Of a stretch of 48,022 nucleotides of DNA, positions 764-42,482 are shown piece by piece. Position numbers and translations under genes: made by a program. Numbering within the stretch: position 1 is the stretch's first letter; the number at the start of each line of letters is the position of its first letter. The notes under the pieces were generated by a model. That model saw nothing but the letters and a program-made list of their open reading frames with translations. It ran no database searches and was not told where the DNA came from. Source of the DNA: a virus. The stretch covers positions 1 through 48,022 of IMG/VR virus record IMGVR_UViG_3300027880_000008. One strand, written 5' to 3'.

Positions 764-1771
764 TTAGGCGTTGACGCCGATCGAGCTGACGGTCTCCAAG
801 CGGAAGACGCACTCCTCGCGGGTGACCAGGTAGCCGACCATGTGCTTCCAGCCCTTCGACTGCAAGCGCTCGAGGTGGTCGATCCGAGGCCGGGAGGTGA
901 ACACCGGGTCCCGGCCGTAGTCGTCGCCCTTGGAGAACATCTTGCCGAACGCCTGCTTGGCGAACACGTACGAGCCGTACACGTCGATGTTGCCACCCGC
1001 GCCGGCGCCGTTGGAGGCGTTGGCGAACAGGGACGCCCGCGGCGACTCCATCCACCGGACACCGCCGAAGGTGCCGACCACCGCGTTGTAGACGCCCGAA
1101 GTGTCGACGTAGATGTGCGGGTCGGACCACTGATTGCCCGGCGCCGCCGCCCGCAGGTCGAACGCCACGTCCGGGTGCATGACCCCGAAGTAGGTGGTGC
1201 CGCCGAAGCCCATTGCGGACAGGCCGCGCAGCTTCGCCGTCGCGTAGTTGATCACCTGGGCGCTGATCAGGTCTGCGAGCCCGATCCGGTTCCGAGCCGC
1301 CTCGGTGCCGGTGACGATCGGGGTTCCGGCGTCGGAGTACACGACGTTGAGGACGCCACCGTTGGTGGTGCCTGCCGCGGCCTCGAGCCGGTTCCGGGCG
1401 ATGGTGTCGACCGAGAGACCGGCGTTGAAGCCGATGATCTCGGAGACGATCGGGTTGACCTCCATGTAGGCGGTCGCCCGCAGGAACCCGGAGGTCTGGA
1501 CCGCTGCGCCGTACTCGGACACGGTGACGGTCCGGGGCAGGTCGGCCAGTGTGACCGGGGTGACATCCGCGACCTCACCGAGCGGCGTGGTCTGCGCCGG
1601 CATGTCGGTGTAGCGGTTGAAGTTGTGCGAGGACCCGTTGTGGGTGGACTCGGTGTTGTCCAGCTCCACCAGCGAGTCGTAGAACAACTGCGGCCGCAGG
1701 TCGTACATGGCGACCGTGTGATGAGTCGCCGTGACAAGGGTGTCGTAATCGGTGCTGGTGGTGTCAGCCAT
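764..1771 (-). CDS. Major capsid protein, N4-gp56 family
   Basis: The 335-aa protein should form the icosahedral shell. It shows the pattern of the N4-gp56 capsid family: an N-terminal helical stretch (YDLRPQLFYDSLVELD), a middle helix (IARNRLEAAAGT), then a MHPDVAFDLR block around residue 200, a GTFGGVRWMESPRASL segment near 235-250, and a YGSYVFAKQAFGK strand. Length and order fit the HK97-fold members of that family. It lies immediately downstream of the scaffold-like gene, the usual order. The ATG at 1771 follows the scaffold gene by 26 bases. Confidence 0.88.
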   Translation of the reverse strand: MADTTSTDYDTLVTATHHTVAMYDLRPQLFYDSLVELDNTESTHNGSSHNFNRYTDMPAQTTPLGEVADVTPVTLADLPRTVTVSEYGAAVQTSGFLRATAYMEVNPIVSEIIGFNAGLSVDTIARNRLEAAAGTTNGGVLNVVYSDAGTPIVTGTEAARNRIGLADLISAQVINYATAKLRGLSAMGFGGTTYFGVMHPDVAFDLRAAAPGNQWSDPHIYVDTSGVYNAVVGTFGGVRWMESPRASLFANASNGAGAGGNIDVYGSYVFAKQAFGKMFSKGDDYGRDPVFTSRPRIDHLERLQSKGWKHMVGYLVTREECVFRLETVSSIGVNA

Positions 1772-4421: not shown

Positions 4422-5285
4422 CTAGCGGCCTGCGGTGCGCAGCCCGGTGACGCCTTCCTTCGTCGAGGCGAACCCGCCGCCGCCCTCACCAAAGTCCGCG
4501 GTGCGCGCACCGGCCGCGCTGCGGATCTTCTTGACGGCATCCACGTTCCCCTCGAACTCGGCCTCCACCAGGTCCTCGTCGGAGACGAGCTGACCCGCTT
4601 GGCCGGGAAGCTGGGTGGTGAGCCCGCGCAGCTGCGCGGCCGCGCCGAACCCCTGCAGCGCCTCCTGCTCGCTGATGCCACGCTCTGCGAGGCGCTCCGC
4701 CGTCCCAACCACGATGTTGCCGAACCCTGCGGCCAGCGCCGCACCGCCGACCAGCGCCGCCTGGGTCTGCTTCTCGATCAGCGGCAACGCGCGGGTCGGG
4801 TCGATGAAGTACGCGAACGAGCCGGCCCGCGTCGTGCCGTACGCCTGCTGGAAGTACTCGGCGCCCTGCGTGTGCTGCTCGTCGAACACGGCCTGCCAGG
4901 ACTGCAGGCGCCGCTGCATCCCGGCCGGGGACAGGTGGTTGCCGATGGCCGTGGCGAAGTCCGCTGGCTGGTCGTAGAAGCCGGGCGGGAACCCGTACGC
5001 GGTCAGCATTTCCCGAAAGGCGTTCTCGGTGCTGATGTACTCGGCCGGCGAGAGCACGTTGTAACCGTTGCGCTGCAGGAGCACGTTGCCGGCGAACCGG
5101 GTCCGCCACTCGTCGGTCTCCTGCAACAGCATCAGCATCGTGTCCTCGGAGTAGCCCTCGTCGATGTACTCGTTGATCCGCGACGCGAGCGACTCGAGCC
5201 CGTACAGCTTGAGCACCGAGTAGACGGCGACAGCAGCGTCGCGGTCGGCTCCGTACAGCCCGCCGAACGGGTCACTGGCTGGCAT
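4422..5285 (-). CDS. Putative internal virion protein, 287 aa
   Basis: The 287-aa product starts at ATG 5285 and ends the first block of late genes. It is mostly helical with charged segments (SLASRINEYIDEGYSEDTML), a hydrophobic Ala/Gly-rich stretch near residues 185-200 (AALVGGAALAAGFGNIVVG) and a Gly-rich loop near the C-terminus. It follows another 287-aa protein and the 1457-aa protein, so it probably belongs to the same internal or DNA-delivery complex. No enzymatic motif is visible. Confidence 0.65.
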   Translation of the reverse strand: MPASDPFGGLYGADRDAAVAVYSVLKLYGLESLASRINEYIDEGYSEDTMLMLLQETDEWRTRFAGNVLLQRNGYNVLSPAEYISTENAFREMLTAYGFPPGFYDQPADFATAIGNHLSPAGMQRRLQSWQAVFDEQHTQGAEYFQQAYGTTRAGSFAYFIDPTRALPLIEKQTQAALVGGAALAAGFGNIVVGTAERLAERGISEQEALQGFGAAAQLRGLTTQLPGQAGQLVSDEDLVEAEFEGNVDAVKKIRSAAGARTADFGEGGGGFASTKEGVTGLRTAGR

Positions 5286-5294
5286 CGAGTCCTC

Positions 5295-6158
5295 CTAGGC
5301 GGCGACGAAGCCCATCTTGTTGAGCAGACCGTGCACGATCGACATGGACGCGTCCTGCCGCCACTGGGTGCCGCGGGACCGGCGGTCCTTGCGCAGCTCC
5401 CGCTCCCAGTCGGTGATCGACAGGGGCGCGGCGGCGCCGGTCTTCTGGTCGCGGGCCGACAACGCGGAACGGATCTTCGGGTCGAGCATGTTGATCTGCG
5501 CCGGGTTGATCTCCAACAGCTGGGCCATCGAGTTGACGTACGGGGAGGCGATGTCGGCCAGGTCCATACCGGCCTGCAGCTCTTGGGCGAAGCCGGGGAA
5601 CGCTCGAGCGGCGCTCGTTCGGATCGCGGTCTGCACGTCCTCGACGCTGCGGTCGCCGCGCGCGATGGCCTGCACGTGGCCCTGATACCACTTGTCGTTG
5701 AACGTGTACCCGTTGGCCAGCGCGGAGGCCCGCAGCGCTTGCACGTTGACGCCGGCCTGGCCGACCATCCGGCCGTTCTGGAACCGCACGTAGCGGGACA
5801 GCCGGTCGCGCAGCTCCGCGTCGGAGTAGCCGAACAGCAGCGTGTGCTTGGCCATCAGCGAGAGCTGCTTGAAGTCCAGGTCCGAGCCGAGCGCGGCGGC
5901 CTGGTCCTTCACCGACGCGTACGTGGCGGCGAGCTGTTTCTTCCACTCGCCGGGGTCGACCTTCTGCATCGTCGACATGCGGCGCCACGTCTCACCGTGG
6001 CGGCGGAACCACTGGGTGTCGCGGAACTCTGCCTGGAACTTCTGCCGCGTCCAGTTGTGCTCCTTGGCCATGTTGAACAGGCGCCTCAACTCCGGGTCGG
6101 AGTTGATCATGGCGACGGTCCAGCCGAAGCCGGACGCGACCTCCTCGTTGGTGGGCAT
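5295..6158 (-). CDS. Putative internal virion protein, 287 aa
   Basis: ATG 6158 gives 287 residues. The protein is helix-rich and strongly charged, with tryptophans in the N-terminal third (GFGWTVAMINSDPELRRLF, EHNWTRQKF, TQWFRRHGETWRRM). Repeated RRLF/TRQKF-type helices and the lack of membrane segments fit a virion-internal or tail-associated structural protein. Its length equals that of the next gene, but I see no convincing alignment between the two. Confidence 0.65.
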   Translation of the reverse strand: MPTNEEVASGFGWTVAMINSDPELRRLFNMAKEHNWTRQKFQAEFRDTQWFRRHGETWRRMSTMQKVDPGEWKKQLAATYASVKDQAAALGSDLDFKQLSLMAKHTLLFGYSDAELRDRLSRYVRFQNGRMVGQAGVNVQALRASALANGYTFNDKWYQGHVQAIARGDRSVEDVQTAIRTSAARAFPGFAQELQAGMDLADIASPYVNSMAQLLEINPAQINMLDPKIRSALSARDQKTGAAAPLSITDWERELRKDRRSRGTQWRQDASMSIVHGLLNKMGFVAA

Positions 6159-6164
6159 CGGTCA

Positions 6165-6317
6165 CTACTTGATGACGATGGGCAGCGCCCAGGCGATGGC
6201 GGCGGCGAGCAGCCCCACCGAGACCCAGAACATGCCCCAAGCCTTGGCCATCCCGTGGATGATCGCGGCGATGAGGAAGAACAGGCAGGCGAGCGCGAAC
6301 AGGAAGTCCTCGGTCAT
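6165..6317 (-). CDS. Small two-helix membrane protein
   Basis: ATG 6317 lies behind a good GGAGGTGA site and gives 50 residues ending at TAG 6165. Two hydrophobic helices (FLFALACLFFLIAAIIHG and WVSVGLLAAAIAWALPIVI) are joined by a short MAKAWG turn. It could be an antiholin/holin-type protein or a membrane part of the DNA-delivery apparatus; its place among virion genes rather than beside the lysins leans to the latter. The parS-like site lies in its upstream region. Confidence 0.7.
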   Translation of the reverse strand: MTEDFLFALACLFFLIAAIIHGMAKAWGMFWVSVGLLAAAIAWALPIVIK

Positions 6318-6340
6318 CGGTTCACCTCCATGATCAAAGA

Positions 6341-6358
6341 ATGTTTCACGTGAAACAT
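6341..6358. promoter_or_regulatory. parS-type ParB binding site
   Basis: The 18-bp perfect palindrome ATGTTTCACGTGAAACAT contains TGTTTCACGTGAAACA (6342-6357), the consensus chromosomal parS sequence recognised by ParB in many bacteria, including actinobacteria. It lies in the 70-bp gap between the NlpC/P60 gene and the small membrane protein gene. Both strands of the palindrome read MFHVKH. I recognise no ParA or ParB gene in the phage, so the likely partner is host ParB. Confidence 0.85.
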
Positions 6359-6387
6359 CGTCGTCGCAGACAGCATGACAGGCCGTA

Positions 6388-14469: not shown

Positions 14470-14730
14470 TCAGGTGCGCTCCCGGTCGCTGTCGGTCGGC
14501 ATGTCCATCTGCTCGGCGATGCGCAGCATGCCGACCCGCTCGAACCAGGTCAGCCCGTCCGACCAGCAGGTGGTGAGCCGCACGTCGCCGTTCTCCTCGA
14601 TCACCTTGATGACCACAACCGCACCGCCGACCAGCTCCCCGTCGGCGATGGTGGCGACACAGCCGGCCGCGTCGAGAATGTGCCCGATCGGCTTCTTGGT
14701 TTCGCTGTTGTCGTCTTCCCATGCGCTCAT
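14470..14730 (-). CDS. Small conserved-type protein between terminase and portal
   Basis: ATG 14730 overlaps the terminase stop by 4 bases and gives 86 residues. The sequence looks like a small alpha/beta protein: a Lys-rich start, the strands GCVATIADGELVGGAVVVIKVIEE and an aromatic CWSDGLTWFERVGM stretch. No domain was recognised. Coupling to the terminase suggests packaging or early head assembly. Confidence 0.65.
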   Translation of the reverse strand: MSAWEDDNSETKKPIGHILDAAGCVATIADGELVGGAVVVIKVIEENGDVRLTTCWSDGLTWFERVGMLRIAEQMDMPTDSDRERT

Positions 14731-16619
14731 GCGCTTCTCCTCAGCCGCGCCGCGGCGTACCTGTCTTTGACGGCGACGAAGCCGGGCCGGTGCTGTTTGC
14801 GGCGCTTGTTGTTGACCGGCGGGAAGATGCTGCGGTAGCGCAGCTCCGCGAACCAGTCGGCCATCACCGTGTCGTCGGTTTTGGCGAACGGGAAATTGGT
14901 GTGCTCGTAGACGAATACCCTCATATTGGGGTCCTGCCTCGATTTTCCGGGCAGCCGGATCCGGCCGTATTTGAACGGGTCGCGGAGAATGTCGGGGCCG
15001 GTCTCCTCGTCGGGTTTGTTCTTTCCGGTGGTGTAGTGCGGGACCAAAATCACATTCCGCTGCGCCCGCCAGTCCTCCCACCTGCGGTTGTGGAAAAGGA
15101 GCCGCTGCAGCGCGTTGTATTCGGGGATCACATGGGAGGGCCGGAATCCGAGTTTGGTGGCCCGCTGCCACATGTCCTCGACCTTGCCTTTGAACTTGCC
15201 CGAATACACTTCCTGTTCGAGCAGGTCGTCCAAGCCGAGCGGTTCACGCACACAGTCGATAAGCCAGCGTTTCTCCAACTTGGAGTGTGTGATCCACGTT
15301 TCGATGGCCCAGAACTTGGTACCGGACGGGTCGATGGTCATGAGCGTCTTGCAGCCGGGCGGGAGGTCCTTCGGGATCTCGAGGAGTGCCCGGTCCATGT
15401 CCCAGCAGCCGACGAAATCCTCCCCGGTTTCGGGGTCGATTCCGCCGTTGACCCACAGCGCCGGCACGAGCACCGAATCGGGGTCGGTTTCTTCCTGCTG
15501 GTAGGTGACCCGATAGCGGTGGTGCCGGTCGGCCATCTTCTTGATGAGGTCGACCCACGGGAGCCGTTTCGGGTCGAGCAGGCATCCCCCTTCGCCGTAC
15601 GGTTTCGCGTCGGGGCCGTGGTCGTCTTTGCATTCGAGGTCGAAGTGGGCGGGCAGCACGAAATGCTGGTAGACGGGTTTCCCGTCCAAGTCGACCTGAT
15701 CCAAACAATGCCGGGATATGTCGGTGGCGCCCAACCGCTGCATGACGAGCAGGAACAGCCCGCCCGGTTCGAGCCGGTTTTCGGCGACCTGCCCCCACTG
15801 GTTGAAGAAGGTCTCGCGTACATCCTCGGACGCTTTGATGGTCTTGAGGTCGTCAACGTCGTCCCACACGATCAGCCGATAGCGGCCGCCGAGATAGCCG
15901 CCGTCGAATCCGAACGCAGTAACCGAGGGTTCTTTGTCGACGGTGGGTTCGCCGTCTTTGGACACGACGGTGAATCGGTTCTGGGCCCAGAAGTTGGTCT
16001 CGCCGCGCTGGTCGGGGCGGAACCGGCCGTAGTCGCCCATCAGCGTCGACTCGGCGTCGGTGGCAAGGCCCAGCTCGAGGTCTCGGACACCGGCGCGCAG
16101 CGGCAGGGTGCGGGTGAACTCGTCGCGGATCTGGACCGTGTTCAGCGTGGCCTGGTCGATGATCCGCGACCCCCACATGGTGGACAGGGTGCGGTCCTTG
16201 GTGGTGAGCCAGTTCACCAGGTCCCGGACGAACGTGGTCTTGCCGACGCCCGGCGGCAGATTGACCACGGCGTACACCCGCTCGGGCGCGTACAACCACT
16301 CGTCGATCTTCTGCGCCAGCTCGGCAGCCCACGGCACCTCAGCCCGCCCGTAGAAGCGGCGCCGGAAGTACAGGAAGTCGGCAAGCGCTTTCTCAGCGGG
16401 CTTACTCAGCCGCCGGCCGCGTTTGATGTCCTTCCCCGACGTGGACGACATCCAACGGCGGTAGGCGGCGGCGCCGGAAGTGGAGTCGGGATCGGCGAAC
16501 ACCCGGTCGGCCTGGTGGGTGCTGATGTTGGCGAGCTCGGCGGCTTCTTTGCGGGTGCGGCCACGGGCCAGCAAAGCGAAGAACGCGTCCCACTGCTCGT
16601 TGCTGATCAGACGCGGCAT
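14727..16619 (-). CDS. Terminase large subunit with N-terminal HTH
   Basis: The 630-aa protein powers DNA packaging. The Walker A motif NLPPGVGKTTF lies near residue 120, Walker B LIVWDDVDD near 250, a coupling-motif-like VMQRLGATD near 290, and a first nuclease acidic residue in LMTIDPSGT near 420. Residues 15-60 (RTRKEAAELANISTHQADRVF) look like a helix-turn-helix of small-terminase type, and no separate small terminase gene was recognised, so DNA recognition may be built in. ATG 16619 lies only 6 bases after a possible TACACT -10 box. Confidence 0.9.
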   Translation of the reverse strand: MPRLISNEQWDAFFALLARGRTRKEAAELANISTHQADRVFADPDSTSGAAAYRRWMSSTSGKDIKRGRRLSKPAEKALADFLYFRRRFYGRAEVPWAAELAQKIDEWLYAPERVYAVVNLPPGVGKTTFVRDLVNWLTTKDRTLSTMWGSRIIDQATLNTVQIRDEFTRTLPLRAGVRDLELGLATDAESTLMGDYGRFRPDQRGETNFWAQNRFTVVSKDGEPTVDKEPSVTAFGFDGGYLGGRYRLIVWDDVDDLKTIKASEDVRETFFNQWGQVAENRLEPGGLFLLVMQRLGATDISRHCLDQVDLDGKPVYQHFVLPAHFDLECKDDHGPDAKPYGEGGCLLDPKRLPWVDLIKKMADRHHRYRVTYQQEETDPDSVLVPALWVNGGIDPETGEDFVGCWDMDRALLEIPKDLPPGCKTLMTIDPSGTKFWAIETWITHSKLEKRWLIDCVREPLGLDDLLEQEVYSGKFKGKVEDMWQRATKLGFRPSHVIPEYNALQRLLFHNRRWEDWRAQRNVILVPHYTTGKNKPDEETGPDILRDPFKYGRIRLPGKSRQDPNMRVFVYEHTNFPFAKTDDTVMADWFAELRYRSIFPPVNNKRRKQHRPGFVAVKDRYAAARLRRSA

Positions 16620-24570: not shown

Positions 24571-24753
24571 ATGGCACGGCGACCAATCGACGGGTTCACC
24601 CGCGTGGCGCGAACACCCGAAGAAGTGGCCAGCGGACGCGGCCGACGCACCGGGATAGTCCGGTGCGACCGCTGCGGCAAGCGGATCGAGGCGAGCGGCA
24701 TGGGCATCGGCTCGCACCGTCGCAAGCACGCACGGGAGAGGCAGGAGCAGTGA
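24571..24753 (+). CDS. Small C2H2-type zinc-finger protein
   Basis: The 60-aa product has an Arg-rich start and VRCDRCGKRIEASGMGIGSHRRKH, a C-x2-C...H-x3-H arrangement typical of a single zinc finger. It is translationally coupled to the methyltransferase gene (GTGA overlap), so the two may be co-regulated. DNA binding is plausible. Confidence 0.7.
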   Translation: MARRPIDGFTRVARTPEEVASGRGRRTGIVRCDRCGKRIEASGMGIGSHRRKHARERQEQ

Positions 24754-26423
24754 GCATCACCTACACCGACATTTTCTGCGGGGCGGGCGGCTCGAGTATC
24801 GGCCTATCCGGCTCGGGCATGGAATTGAAGCTCGCCGCCAACCACTGGGCGCGCGCCATCGAAACCCACTCCGCCAACTACCCGGACGCCGAGCACCTGT
24901 GCGCCGATGTCAACAACTACGACATGAGGCGTCTACCCACCACCGATGTCCTGTGGGCCTCGCCGATCTGCACCGAGCTCTCACCCGCCGGGGGGAAGCG
25001 CAAGACACGCGGGCAGCTCGACCTACTGGCCGAAGGGCCGATCGACTCCGCCGGGTACGAGCGGACGCGGGCCACGTTCCACGACGTGATCCGGGCGACC
25101 GAGGTTCACCGCTACCGCGCGGTAATCGTTGAGAACGTGGTCGATGTGCTCGCCTGGGAGCTGTTCGACTGGTGGTTGGGCGGCATGAAACTGCTCGGCT
25201 ACCGCTGCCAGTTCGTGTCCGTGTCGTCGGCGCACGTGGGCGGGCCGACCAACCCGCACGCGCCGCAGTGGCGGGACCGGCTGTACATGGTGTTCACCCG
25301 CGAGAGCATCCGCGAGCCGGACGTGACCCCGCGTCCGCTGGCCTGGTGCTTCGACTGTGGGGAGAACGTGCAAGCCGTGCAGTCGTGGCGTCGGCAGGGT
25401 GTGCGGATGATCGGCAAATACCGGCAGCAGTACGACTACCGCTGCCCCAACTCGGAATGCAAACACGCGATCGTAGAGCCGTACGTACTCCCGGCCGCTG
25501 CCGCTATCGACTGGTCGAACCTGGGCACCCGGATCGGCGACCGCACGAAGCCGCTCGCCGCGAACACCATGCGGCGCATCCAAGAGGGCCTACGCCAGTT
25601 CTCGCAGCCCGTCATAACCAACGTGGGCGGCAACACCTGGGAACGGCCAGGCTCCGGGTATGTGCGCGCCTGGCCGACCGGCGAGGCGCCGATGATGGCC
25701 CGCACCGGCACCCCCGCCGATGCGCTGGCATGCCCGCCGCTGGTGGTCAACATCAACCACCCGGACAACCGCAGCTTCCCCGCGCACGACGGCCCGTTGC
25801 CGTCGCGCACCATCAAACTCGGCGAAGGCATGCTCGTGCCCTCGGGCGGCACCTGGAACAACGCCCCGACCTGGACCGATGAGCCGATGCGGACCCGCCT
25901 CGCCAACGAGAAGGGATACGAGGGGATCTGCGTCCCGTTCATCACCGAGGCGCGCCGCAACTCTCAAGCCGCGTCCGTCGAGGATGACGCGCTGGCCACG
26001 GTCACCGCTGGCGGCAACCACCACGAGCTGACCATCCCGCCGGGCGCGTTCCACATGAAGGTCAACAGCGGGAACTGTGTGCCCGGCCAGGCCACCGACG
26101 AGGTTGGTCGCCCGTTCGGGTCCATCACCAGGCGGGACACGACCGCGCTGGTGATCCCCTATCGGCGCGGCCGGGCCAAGACCAGCGACGAGCCGTTGCA
26201 CACGCTGGGCACCCACGACAGCGCCGGGCTGGTACGCCCGGAGATCGAGGTGGACGACTGCCTGTTCCGCATGCTGCAGCCACGCGAGCACCTGCGCGCG
26301 CAGCGGTTCCCCGACAGCTACATCGTGACCGGCAACAAAGGCGAGCAGACCATGCAGGCCGGTAACGCCGTATCCGCTAACGTCGCCCACTGGCTGGGCG
26401 AGCAGCTGCTAGCGGTTCTCTGA
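24750..26423 (+). CDS. C5-cytosine DNA methyltransferase
   Basis: The 557-aa protein transfers methyl from SAM to cytosine C5. Motif I is DIFCGAGGSSIGL (residue 7), the catalytic Cys is in WASPICTELSPAG (motif IV, near 70; Ile replaces the usual Pro before Cys), motif VI is VIVENVVDV, motif VIII QWRDRLYMV, and the C-terminal GNAVSANVAHWLGE is motif X. The variable region is long and holds a probable zinc ribbon (CFDCGENV...RCPNSECKH). It has no partner restriction gene here, so protection of phage DNA from host restriction is likely. GTG 24750 overlaps the zinc-finger gene stop. Confidence 0.9.
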   Translation: MSITYTDIFCGAGGSSIGLSGSGMELKLAANHWARAIETHSANYPDAEHLCADVNNYDMRRLPTTDVLWASPICTELSPAGGKRKTRGQLDLLAEGPIDSAGYERTRATFHDVIRATEVHRYRAVIVENVVDVLAWELFDWWLGGMKLLGYRCQFVSVSSAHVGGPTNPHAPQWRDRLYMVFTRESIREPDVTPRPLAWCFDCGENVQAVQSWRRQGVRMIGKYRQQYDYRCPNSECKHAIVEPYVLPAAAAIDWSNLGTRIGDRTKPLAANTMRRIQEGLRQFSQPVITNVGGNTWERPGSGYVRAWPTGEAPMMARTGTPADALACPPLVVNINHPDNRSFPAHDGPLPSRTIKLGEGMLVPSGGTWNNAPTWTDEPMRTRLANEKGYEGICVPFITEARRNSQAASVEDDALATVTAGGNHHELTIPPGAFHMKVNSGNCVPGQATDEVGRPFGSITRRDTTALVIPYRRGRAKTSDEPLHTLGTHDSAGLVRPEIEVDDCLFRMLQPREHLRAQRFPDSYIVTGNKGEQTMQAGNAVSANVAHWLGEQLLAVL

Positions 26424-29187: not shown

Positions 29188-29230
29188 TATTAGTCCTAAC
29201 AGATCCGTGCTGGTCGGGTTCGGCCCGGCA

Positions 29231-29280
29231 CCTCGTTCGCATCGAGGGGGTCGCCGGTTCGAATCCGGCCAGCTCCACCA
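29231..29280 (+). other. attP core: 3' part of tRNA-Ala(CGC)
   Basis: The 50 bases fold as the last two thirds of a tRNA: anticodon arm CCTCG-TTCGCAT-CGAGG (anticodon CGC, alanine), variable loop GGGTC, T arm GCCGG-TTCGAAT-CCGGC, acceptor strand CAGCTCC, then ACCA. CAGCTCC would pair with GGGGCTG including the alanine G3-U70 pair, but no such 5' half precedes it, so it is not a working tRNA gene. It is the segment that restores a host tRNA-Ala gene on integration, 565 bases from the integrase stop. Confidence 0.85.
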
Positions 29281-29660: not shown

Positions 29661-29848
29661 CCTTCCACGACAGCGGCTACCTGCACAACCACCCGCACGG
29701 GCCGTGGTGGGCCATCGCCGTCCTAGTGGTGATGGCGCTCGCGGTGTACGCCGCTGGGCTGTACGTCCAGGACCCCACGTTCGCTCGGGTGCGGCGGGCC
29801 TGGACGCTGCTAGTGACGGCTGCCCGGTGGTCCGTCCGTAAGCACTAG
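29657..29848 (+). CDS. 63-aa single-pass membrane protein
   Basis: GTG 29657 overlaps the previous TGA. One transmembrane helix (WWAIAVLVVMALAVYAAGLYV, about residues 17-37) is preceded by a His-rich start and followed by a basic tail. Its stop overlaps the integrase stop by 4 bases from the other strand. Confidence 0.6.
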   Translation: MTFHDSGYLHNHPHGPWWAIAVLVVMALAVYAAGLYVQDPTFARVRRAWTLLVTAARWSVRKH

Positions 29849-30963
29849 CCGATCGCAGCGGCACGAGCGGAGGAGACTTCGCCGTGCCGCTGCCCCATGT
29901 CGTCAAGAAGCCGTTGACGCATCACAGCGGACACGTGCGAGTACACCCCGGCGATGCCCGACTGCTCATGCCCGAGCCGCTCGCACTGCAGCACCTCCGG
30001 CACCCCGAGTTCGAGCAGCAGCACCTTGTGCGAATGGCGCAGCCCATGAAACGACAAGCCTGGTGCGAGATCGGCCACAGCCGGCCCGAGCACCCGGCGG
30101 GAGAAGTTCGACCGTCGGTGCAGACCACCGCGGGGACCGCAGAACACGTGCTCGTGCGGCCAGGTGGCAAGGTGAGCGGCCAGCTCGTCGGCGAGGAACT
30201 CAGGGAGGTCGACCTCGCGGGCACCATTGGGGGGCTTCGGTGGCCCGAGGACAAGCTGGCCGCTGTCCAGTTCGTGGAGCGCGCCACGCTGCGCGTCCAC
30301 GACGATCACATGCCTGGTGGGATTGCTACGCAGCAGCACGCTACTGGCCCGGTGCAGCCCGGCCAGCTCGCCCCAGCGCATCCCGGTCCAGTACGCAGTA
30401 CGAAGCAGTAGGTTATCGGCGTAGCGCGGGGTGCAGATCCGCCCGATAATATCGGCCGTCACCCACACCCGCTCGGCGGGCTTGGCCCGCCGGCGCCCCC
30501 ATTCCCGGCGTCTACGGTGCAGCGGGTTGCCCACCAGCCGGTCGTCATCGACCGCGGCCTGCAGCAGCATCGACAGCATGCTCACCGCATCCTTGACGGT
30601 GCGGTACGCCAGGCCCGAGTCCTCGAGCCGGTTGGCCCAGGCTTTGACCGGCAGCCACGTGATGTCGCCGAGCTCGACGTGGCCCCAGCGTGGCAGAACG
30701 AACCGGCGCAGCAGGTAGTCGTAGCTGCCCGCGGTGCGGTCGCCCAGGCGCAGCGAGTCGCGCCAGACGGGCACGAACTCGGCGATGGTGACACGGCCAC
30801 GGCGGGGGTCCTTCGCCCGGCCACGCCGCAAGTCCGACTCCTGATCGTCCCCCCACTGCTCCGCCGCCCGCTGGGTGAGAAACCCCGACTCGGAACCCCA
30901 CGTACCATCCGGCAGGCGGTAGCGGACCCGCCAGGTGCTACCCCGCCGTTCGGCGTACGCCAC
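29845..30963 (-). CDS. int: Tyrosine integrase
   Basis: The 372-aa recombinase inserts the phage at a tRNA-Ala gene. The N-terminal arm-binding domain (ERRGSTWRVRYRLPDG) precedes a SAM-like core-binding domain (about 60-150). Catalytic residues are visible: Arg in TGMRWGELAGL (about 195), HGLRHSH (His and Arg, about 310), GH in ERLGHEQSG, and the nucleophile Tyr in GVYSHVSAVM near 345. It starts at GTG 30963 and its C-terminus points at attP, the usual layout. It lies in the lysogeny block with the repressor upstream. Confidence 0.93.
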   Translation of the reverse strand: MAYAERRGSTWRVRYRLPDGTWGSESGFLTQRAAEQWGDDQESDLRRGRAKDPRRGRVTIAEFVPVWRDSLRLGDRTAGSYDYLLRRFVLPRWGHVELGDITWLPVKAWANRLEDSGLAYRTVKDAVSMLSMLLQAAVDDDRLVGNPLHRRRREWGRRRAKPAERVWVTADIIGRICTPRYADNLLLRTAYWTGMRWGELAGLHRASSVLLRSNPTRHVIVVDAQRGALHELDSGQLVLGPPKPPNGAREVDLPEFLADELAAHLATWPHEHVFCGPRGGLHRRSNFSRRVLGPAVADLAPGLSFHGLRHSHKVLLLELGVPEVLQCERLGHEQSGIAGVYSHVSAVMRQRLLDDMGQRHGEVSSARAAAIG

Positions 30964-31422: not shown

Positions 31423-31794
31423 CTACACACCTTCGCGCCGCAGTCCGGTGGGTTCGTCGTCCATCTGTTCGGCCATGATCCGCATCGTCTCGGCCCGGTG
31501 TCCACGAATCCAGTCCCGTGCGATGCGTTCGGCCTGTCCATACACCAAAGGCGAGTCGACCGGCCCGTCCCGGAGCAGCCGCAGCAGCTCATCCTCGGGC
31601 ATGCCGTACACGAGCGTCAGCTTCACAATGGTCGCGTTGCTGGGCTTGCGTTCGCCGGACTCCGCTTTCAGCACAGTGTCCTTGGAACCCAAGCCGGCGC
31701 GCTTCGCGGCCTCCTCGGCTGACCATCCCCGTTTGGCGCGTTCGAGCGCGAGCCGTTCAGACAGCTCAATCCAGTACAACTCGGTGCGGGCCAT
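31423..31794 (-). CDS. XRE-family repressor
   Basis: ATG 31794 gives 123 residues. Residues 10-60 form an XRE helix-turn-helix (LALERAKRGWSAEEAAKRAGLGSKDTVLKAESGERKPSNATIVKL). The C-terminal half is helical (RIARDWIRGHRAETMRIMAEQM), perhaps for dimerisation. It diverges from a second XRE gene at 31926, the layout of a CI/Cro-type switch. The start codon lies about 10 bases after a TACTAA -10 box, so the mRNA is nearly leaderless. Confidence 0.8.
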   Translation of the reverse strand: MARTELYWIELSERLALERAKRGWSAEEAAKRAGLGSKDTVLKAESGERKPSNATIVKLTLVYGMPEDELLRLLRDGPVDSPLVYGQAERIARDWIRGHRAETMRIMAEQMDDEPTGLRREGV

Positions 31795-31804
31795 GAGGCA
31801 CATG

Positions 31805-31832
31805 TTAGTACAGGTTGGGGCAGGGTTGTCCA
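31805..31832 (-). promoter_or_regulatory. Repressor promoter
   Basis: On the minus strand TGGACA (31832-31827), a 16-base spacer and TACTAA (31810-31805) lead to the repressor ATG at 31794. AGGTTGG lies within the spacer and recurs at 31904, and as CCAACCT at 31846, so these may be operators. Confidence 0.6.
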
Positions 31833-31889
31833 CAGCTTCGGGCATCCAACCTGGGGACTTGCCTGCCTAAATCCTGGACCGAGTTGGGC

Positions 31890-38017: not shown

Positions 38018-38393
38018 CGGCACCTGGATCAAGGTCGGCTGCGGTGAGCGGGACGACGCGGTGCGCAAGGCGACGATGGCTGGCAAGGGAGCCTTGTCCA
38101 CGTACGGCACGCCAACCGGCGCTATCGAGTTCCGGTTCAGCGACTCCGACCTGCCGCTGGTGCGGGACATCGAGGTGTGGGGCGCTGGTGTCGGGCACTG
38201 CTCGCACGAGCGGTTCGTGCCAGCCAAGCCGGACCGGGCCAGCCGCCAATTAGTCGCCTCGCATGTTTGGACGAAGCTGGGCGACAGCGGAGTCCAGGTG
38301 CGGCACACCGAGGGCCACAGCCTCGTCATTGACGTGACCGAACCGATCACGCCGGCGCCGTGGCTGCACTGCACGAGGAGCAGCGGTGACTAA
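38010..38393 (+). CDS. Uncharacterised 127-aa protein
   Basis: ATG 38010 lies in the end of the previous gene with CAGGGAG upstream. The protein is alpha/beta with a Lys/Arg-rich helix (ERDDAVRKATMAGKG), GAIEFRFSDSDLPLVRDIEV and a His/Cys pair (VGHCSHERF). It overlaps the deoxyribosyltransferase-like gene by 8 bases. No family was recognised. Confidence 0.6.
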   Translation: MSDGTWIKVGCGERDDAVRKATMAGKGALSTYGTPTGAIEFRFSDSDLPLVRDIEVWGAGVGHCSHERFVPAKPDRASRQLVASHVWTKLGDSGVQVRHTEGHSLVIDVTEPITPAPWLHCTRSSGD

Positions 38394-38754
38394 CCGGCCC
38401 ACGATTGTCTGCCTGTGCGGTTCGACCCGGTTCGGCGAGGCGTTCCAGGAGGCCAACCTTCGGGAGACCCTCGCCGGCCGGATCGTGCTGAGCATCGGCT
38501 GCGACACGAAGTCGGACAGTGAGCTTTGGTCTGGGAGCCCGGAGGAGGCCGCGCAGATCAAGGCCGCTCTGGACGAGCTGCACAAGCGGAAGATCGACCT
38601 TGCCGACGAGATCCTGGTGCTCAACGTGGGCGGGTACGTCGGCGAGTCGACCCGCAGCGAGATCGCGTACGCGGAGCAGCACGGCAAGTACGTGCGCTAC
38701 CTGGAAGCGACCGGCCTGTACGGCACCGTCCTGGTGGGTGACACCGATGGATGA
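38386..38754 (+). CDS. Nucleoside 2-deoxyribosyltransferase-like protein
   Basis: GTG 38386 gives 122 residues with the order of that fold family: VCLCGSTRFGEAFQEANL at the N-terminus, a helix EAAQIKAALDELHKRKIDLADEILVLNVGGYVGESTRSEI and a closing strand KYVRYLE. The glycine-serine-threonine start and ES-x-R-x-E segment fit nucleotide-binding enzymes or the related phage DUF4406 group. It may act in nucleotide salvage or modification. The stop overlaps the next start. Confidence 0.72.
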   Translation: MTNRPTIVCLCGSTRFGEAFQEANLRETLAGRIVLSIGCDTKSDSELWSGSPEEAAQIKAALDELHKRKIDLADEILVLNVGGYVGESTRSEIAYAEQHGKYVRYLEATGLYGTVLVGDTDG

Positions 38755-42211: not shown

Positions 42212-42482
42212 TCGCATGTTCGGCGATGTGCTGGTCGAACCGGCCCTTCTCGTAGGCGGCTGCGGCTGCCACGTCCTCGACCTTCTTCTCGATCCGGGTT
42301 AGTTTCCCGATCACGTCGTCAGCGAACCCGTTGCCCACATTCTGGGTATGCTGCTCGATCCTGGCCAGCGGCTTTCTGGTACTGCGGTTGTTCAGCCAGT
42401 GCAGCAGCAGCGGCGCGAGGATGGCAGTAACGATGAGCCCGGCGAGCGCCCACCCGCCGCTGAGGCCCTGCTCCGACCCCAT
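42195..42482 (-). CDS. Membrane protein with coiled coil, last tail-operon gene
   Basis: ATG 42482 overlaps the fibre gene stop (ATGA). The 95-aa protein has one transmembrane helix (WALAGLIVTAILAPLLLHWL, residues 11-30) and a charged helix (ARIEQHTQNVGNGFADDVIGKLTRIEKKVEDVAAAAA). This resembles DUF2746-type small proteins next to actinophage lysis genes, possibly a second holin or antiholin. Confidence 0.7.
   Translation of the reverse strand: MGSEQGLSGGWALAGLIVTAILAPLLLHWLNNRSTRKPLARIEQHTQNVGNGFADDVIGKLTRIEKKVEDVAAAAAYEKGRFDQHIAEHAKPPPA

Follow-up and report, generated by a model that had tools for sequence, protein, structure and literature searches.

The loading of ParB at parS as a CTP-dependent clamp is established biochemistry, and there is precedent for the use of this machinery by genetic elements other than the chromosome. 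The trapping of the phi29 genome in spores of Bacillus subtilis has parS as its cis element, and it reportedly depends on Spo0J, the ParB protein (Meijer et al. 2005, cited in PMC9437464). The genomic island SGI1 carries parS mimics that capture the ParABS system of an IncC plasmid (PMC10954446). A third arrangement is found in actinobacteriophages with extrachromosomal prophages, which have a ParABS partition system of their own (PMC7157519).

We have analysed a single host-type parS site in a window of 48,022 bp, which is the whole of the IMG/VR virus record IMGVR_UViG_3300027880_000008 (68% GC). The resemblance to phi29 is that host ParB, and not a phage ParB, acts on phi29 DNA, and that here a host-type parS is present without a phage ParB. 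The differences are that phi29 is small and virulent, infects a Firmicute and also uses Spo0A sites, whereas the present phage is a temperate actinophage with one intergenic site. Because of phi29, the use of host ParB by a phage is not in itself new; the present case would extend it to a temperate actinophage. Like SGI1, the phage would be a mobile element that has parS-type sites only and relies on the ParAB of another replicon for its stability, but SGI1 targets a plasmid ParB in place of the chromosomal one, has two sites and encodes a small helper protein, Sci. The actinobacteriophages with ParABS encode both ParA and ParB; neither gene was found in the present phage, which carries an integrase gene.

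The two ends of the record share 134 bp that are 98.5% identical, implying that the record is probably one whole genome, with terminal redundancy or circular permutation, and not a prophage excised from a host sequence. From its tyrosine integrase gene, a candidate HTH repressor and a likely attachment site beside the integrase we conclude that this is a temperate phage that integrates. Its late genes lie on the minus strand and extend from the terminase (16619) to the capsid gene (764) and on over the ends of the contig. In the tail cassette the gene order is that of the Streptomyces Beephvirinae, at about 30-35% identity, and by this comparison the phage is a distant relative of that group. 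The positions of the main features are given in the table. The putative attP does not point to a particular host, since its tRNA/tmRNA-like sequence has matches of similar score in about three quarters of the genomes sampled from the class. The phage also has a gene for a C-5 cytosine DNA methyltransferase (24663-26423, plus strand).

Table. Features of the 48,022-bp window that bear on the parS site.
Feature	Position	Strand	Evidence or remark
Major capsid protein	764-1771	-	PF13252
Tail-region protein of conserved cassette	4422-5285	-	phrog_8424
287-aa protein	5295-6158	-	matches C-terminal part of Beephvirinae minor tail protein
50-aa membrane-protein ORF	6165-6317	-	hydrophobic stretches; directly downstream of parS
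70-bp non-coding gap	6318-6387	.	50% GC; holds parS and the RBS of the downstream ORF
18-bp perfect palindrome ATGTTTCACGTGAAACAT	6341-6358	.	inner 16 bp = parS
NlpC/P60 peptidase, 182 aa	6388-6936	-	PF00877, E 2e-24; phrog_329 minor tail protein; upstream of parS in late operon
Large protein of conserved cassette, 1457 aa	7749-12122	-	phrog_10618
Terminase large subunit	14727-16619	-	phrog_38, E 1e-37; upstream part of late operon
tRNA/tmRNA 3'-end-like sequence, probable attP core	29209-29280	+	adjoins integrase; below Rfam gathering score
Tyrosine integrase	29845-30963	-	phrog_1, E 7e-48; PF00589
Candidate HTH repressor	31423-31845		

The initial annotation had reported, in a non-coding gap of 70 bp between an NlpC/P60 gene and a small membrane-protein gene, an 18-bp palindrome containing the exact consensus of the bacterial chromosomal parS, and had judged a chance match very unlikely. 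Each of these statements was confirmed. The consensus TGTTTCACGTGAAACA is identical at 16 of 16 positions (6342-6357), the gap lies where it was described, and the number of exact copies expected by chance in this 68% GC genome is about 1e-6 (0.8-2.0e-6 with Markov models of orders 0-3). ATGTTTCACGTGAAACAT is also the longest perfect palindrome of the genome, the next five being G+C-rich. A scan for further sites at up to three mismatches gave no match in the 48,022 bp other than this one, where shuffled sequence gives a mean of 0.09.

The same motif is found in the chromosomes of actinobacteria. A Streptomyces genome that carries a distant prophage relative of the phage has 16 parS sites at up to two mismatches, which are confined to a stretch of about 230 kb on one contig; a reversed-motif control has no match there. 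Exact parS is present in 59 of the 148 sampled genomes of the class, and the reversed control in none. From this clustering and this distribution we conclude that the class has this motif as its chromosomal parS.

That the phage is without its own ParA and ParB, as first proposed, agrees with our searches. A six-frame search of the whole record gave no ParB_N domain (PF02195), using a procedure that was positive in 11 of 14 control genomes, and Pfam scans of the phage ORFs tested gave no ParA, CbiA or ParB family. Without a ParB gene, and with no ParA in the ORFs scanned, we do not regard the phage as encoding a ParABS system. One candidate for ParA was considered and rejected: the 122-aa product of 38386-38754 (plus strand) has a weak NifH match below cut-off and no deviant Walker motif. 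By eye, this protein resembles a nucleoside deoxyribosyltransferase.

We then asked how common host-type parS is among other phages. In INPHARED, a 36-mer query in which the 18-bp palindrome stands twice matched 213 records, and two palindromes scrambled without change of base composition matched 10 and 0; in IMG/VR the exact 16-mer occurs in at least 120 stretches and a scrambled 16-mer in 10. All of these parS counts include redundant phage records as well as unannotated contigs that are possibly chromosomal (some IMG/VR, Listeria and faecal records), so that named phages carry more weight. Among the IMG/VR matches listed (146 sites), 47% lie outside ORFs of at least 80 aa, compared with 11% of random positions on the same contigs. 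ParB_N is absent from 13 of the 14 named parS-bearing phages checked, the exception being Microbacterium phage Paschalis. In Paschalis, parS lies at 42257 within a DNA-binding-protein gene, and the phage has a ParB_N protein of its own (48945-49202).

Several of the named phages have between two and six sites. Arthrobacter JasmineDragon has six at up to two mismatches, Bacillus vB_BcoS-136 four exact ones within about 1 kb, Ruegeria DSS3P8 three and Lactobacillus Iacchus two, while Clavibacter CMP1, Rhodococcus Finch, Microbacterium Kelcole and Kozie, and Spiroplasma phage 4 have one each. The densest case is an inovirus of 5.9 kb, bajarodino virus 6 (PQ006135.1), with six exact sites (635, 662, 1414, 2857, 4096 and 5628), nearly all of them between genes, and no ParB_N; this suggests an episomal filamentous phage segregated by host ParB. 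Exact parS also occurs in microviruses (ssDNA, about 4-6 kb), at 693 in Spiroplasma phage 4 and in several Microviridae records.

Two exact sites are present in each of the Gordonia phages Harambe (2082 and 2502 of the stretch examined) and Orchid (2502 and 3467), in gaps that separate annotated genes or lie outside them. Three of these four sites are part of extended perfect palindromes of 36, 30 and 32 bp, and the outer arms of these vary by site and phage. When the 4.7-kb right ends of the two Gordonia phage genera concerned, Woesvirus and Orchidvirus, are compared, parS is the sole nucleotide similarity above chance.

The initial annotation suggested that the phage may recruit host ParB, to organise or tether its genome, to silence the late operon in the lysogen or to disturb host segregation. 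Identity of the motif, lack of a phage ParB and enrichment of the motif in phages without ParB together make such recruitment likely, and we consider that the palindrome is probably a docking site for host ParB, binding having some effect. Segregation or retention of phage DNA is favoured as the reason for the site by two experimental precedents, the use of Spo0J by phi29 and the capture of the IncC plasmid ParB by SGI1; the phi29-like phage B103 does have the motif. From the sequence we infer both ParB binding and this benefit to the phage, and we give this reading a probability of roughly 0.45. Host ParB would load on the phage parS as a CTP clamp, during infection or at times when phage DNA, after excision or in replication, is unattached in the cell, and would slide onto the neighbouring DNA. 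The ParA and SMC apparatus of the host might then handle the phage genome as it does an origin region and position it with the host origins, so that phage DNA would be kept in growing hyphal tips, daughter cells or spore compartments with no ParA or ParB from the phage. It speaks against this reading that an integrated phage is already inherited with the chromosome, so that the benefit would have to fall before integration, after excision or when the phage stays unintegrated. If ParB does load at this site, the phage has obtained a segregation system for 16 bp, with neither a ParA nor a ParB gene. This would account for the persistence of non-integrated phage DNA in dividing or sporulating cells, as in pseudolysogeny and spore carriage, and parS would be a simple tag for predicting such phages.

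Two further observations count against retention. The first is that there is a single site here, when many parS-bearing phages have several. The second is that the site is absent from every relative found: the conservation in relatives raised in the initial annotation was not seen among them. At up to three mismatches, parS is absent from four whole Beephvirinae genomes. It is also absent from the stretches examined of 35 IMG/VR relatives, the core motif at up to one mismatch being absent from the whole records of 25 of these. Three prophage regions of actinobacteria lack it too. All of these relatives are remote, at about 25-37% amino-acid identity, and their lack of the site is a weak negative result that would fit a recent gain of either kind, useful or neutral. 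Searches of IMG/VR with one protein at a time (tail protein, integrase and terminase) gave no close relatives, nor did the terminase have any in INPHARED or among 294 genomes of the order. Two actinobacterial genomes contain prophages that are distant relatives of the phage, with no parS in the stretches examined.

The position of the site points to a second potential role, in which host ParB would spread over the late operon and silence the virion genes in the lysogen or delay them early in infection. Within the late operon the site has the terminase on one side and the capsid gene on the other, in the range of the roughly 10-20 kb over which ParB spreads. ParB-family clamps can also repress at a distance, as is reported for KorB (PMC11790492), and we count this in favour of silencing. 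The phage has a candidate repressor, with which silencing by ParB would not be needed. Nor is a location in the late operon general, since other parS-bearing phages have their sites within unrelated genes or in non-structural regions such as the right end. Silencing is thus possible, if unlikely, as the reason for the site, and its position is what speaks for it.

ParB might instead load SMC or TopA and in this way untangle or condense phage DNA as it replicates. Alternatively, the additional copies of parS that arise in lytic growth might titrate ParB away from the host origins and so disturb host segregation. ParB recruits SMC, and in Streptomyces it interacts with TopA, both of which count for the loading of these proteins. 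A function outside lysogeny would also fit the presence of parS in phi29-like B103 and Lactobacillus Iacchus, two phages that are not known to be lysogenic. B103 has one exact parS, inside gene 15, and one site with a single mismatch, and has no ParB_N. The present genome has only one site, which speaks against loading and titration alike, and we think it rather unlikely that either is the explanation.

The palindrome could also be the operator of another dimeric regulator, of phage or host, or an RNA hairpin, resembling parS by convergence. For this reading, the palindrome is perfect and a small gene follows shortly downstream. Yet all 16 positions fit the parS consensus and the site occurs once; neither a terminator-like pattern nor a promoter, the latter search covering those of sigma-70 type, was found at the palindrome or in the gap; and RNA from the gap region folds no better than shuffled sequences (z 0.16). 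We regard this explanation as improbable.

The genes on either side of the gap show how it is placed among the tail genes. The NlpC/P60 gene matches the N-terminal half of the gp11-type tail protein of Beephvirinae, and a search with the 50-aa ORF gave no homologue. The NlpC/P60 domain and the next tail domain (the 287-aa protein here) form one open frame in 32 of 40 relatives, implying that in this lineage the parS gap and the 50-aa ORF split parts that are usually joined. Beephvirinae (Manuelvirus and Flowerpowervirus) have the same tail and capsid cassette, in the same order, as the present phage, but in them the NlpC domain is fused to the next domain and the four genomes searched have no parS at up to three mismatches. 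An origin of the site by chance, or as a neutral remnant of captured host DNA, would fit its absence from all relatives and the lower GC of the gap (50%) than of the genome, but is equally improbable given the chance expectation of about 1e-6 copies, the phage structural genes that flank it in conserved order and the general over-representation of the motif in phages.

Retention of phage DNA by host ParB may reach beyond this genome. We consider the odds about even that centromere mimicry is a general phage strategy, in which an exact host parS, without a phage ParB, parasitises the host ParB for retention of phage DNA. Its proposed range would take in unrelated dsDNA phages with actinobacteria, Firmicutes or a marine alphaproteobacterium as hosts, together with ssDNA inoviruses and microviruses, the present genome being one case. 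A literature search that covered few subscription papers gave no prior account of host-type parS across phages beyond the phi29 citation; its spread over unrelated phages appears to be under-described in the searchable literature. Plasmids seem to differ from phages in this respect. In a plasmid collection three times larger, 21 records have the motif, some of them chromosome-sized, although the search is somewhat less sensitive in a larger database; this scarcity raises the question of why plasmids should have so few. Among the few plasmid cases is a 4.6-kb plasmid of Corynebacterium glutamicum (NC_004533.1), with an exact parS at 2460-2477.
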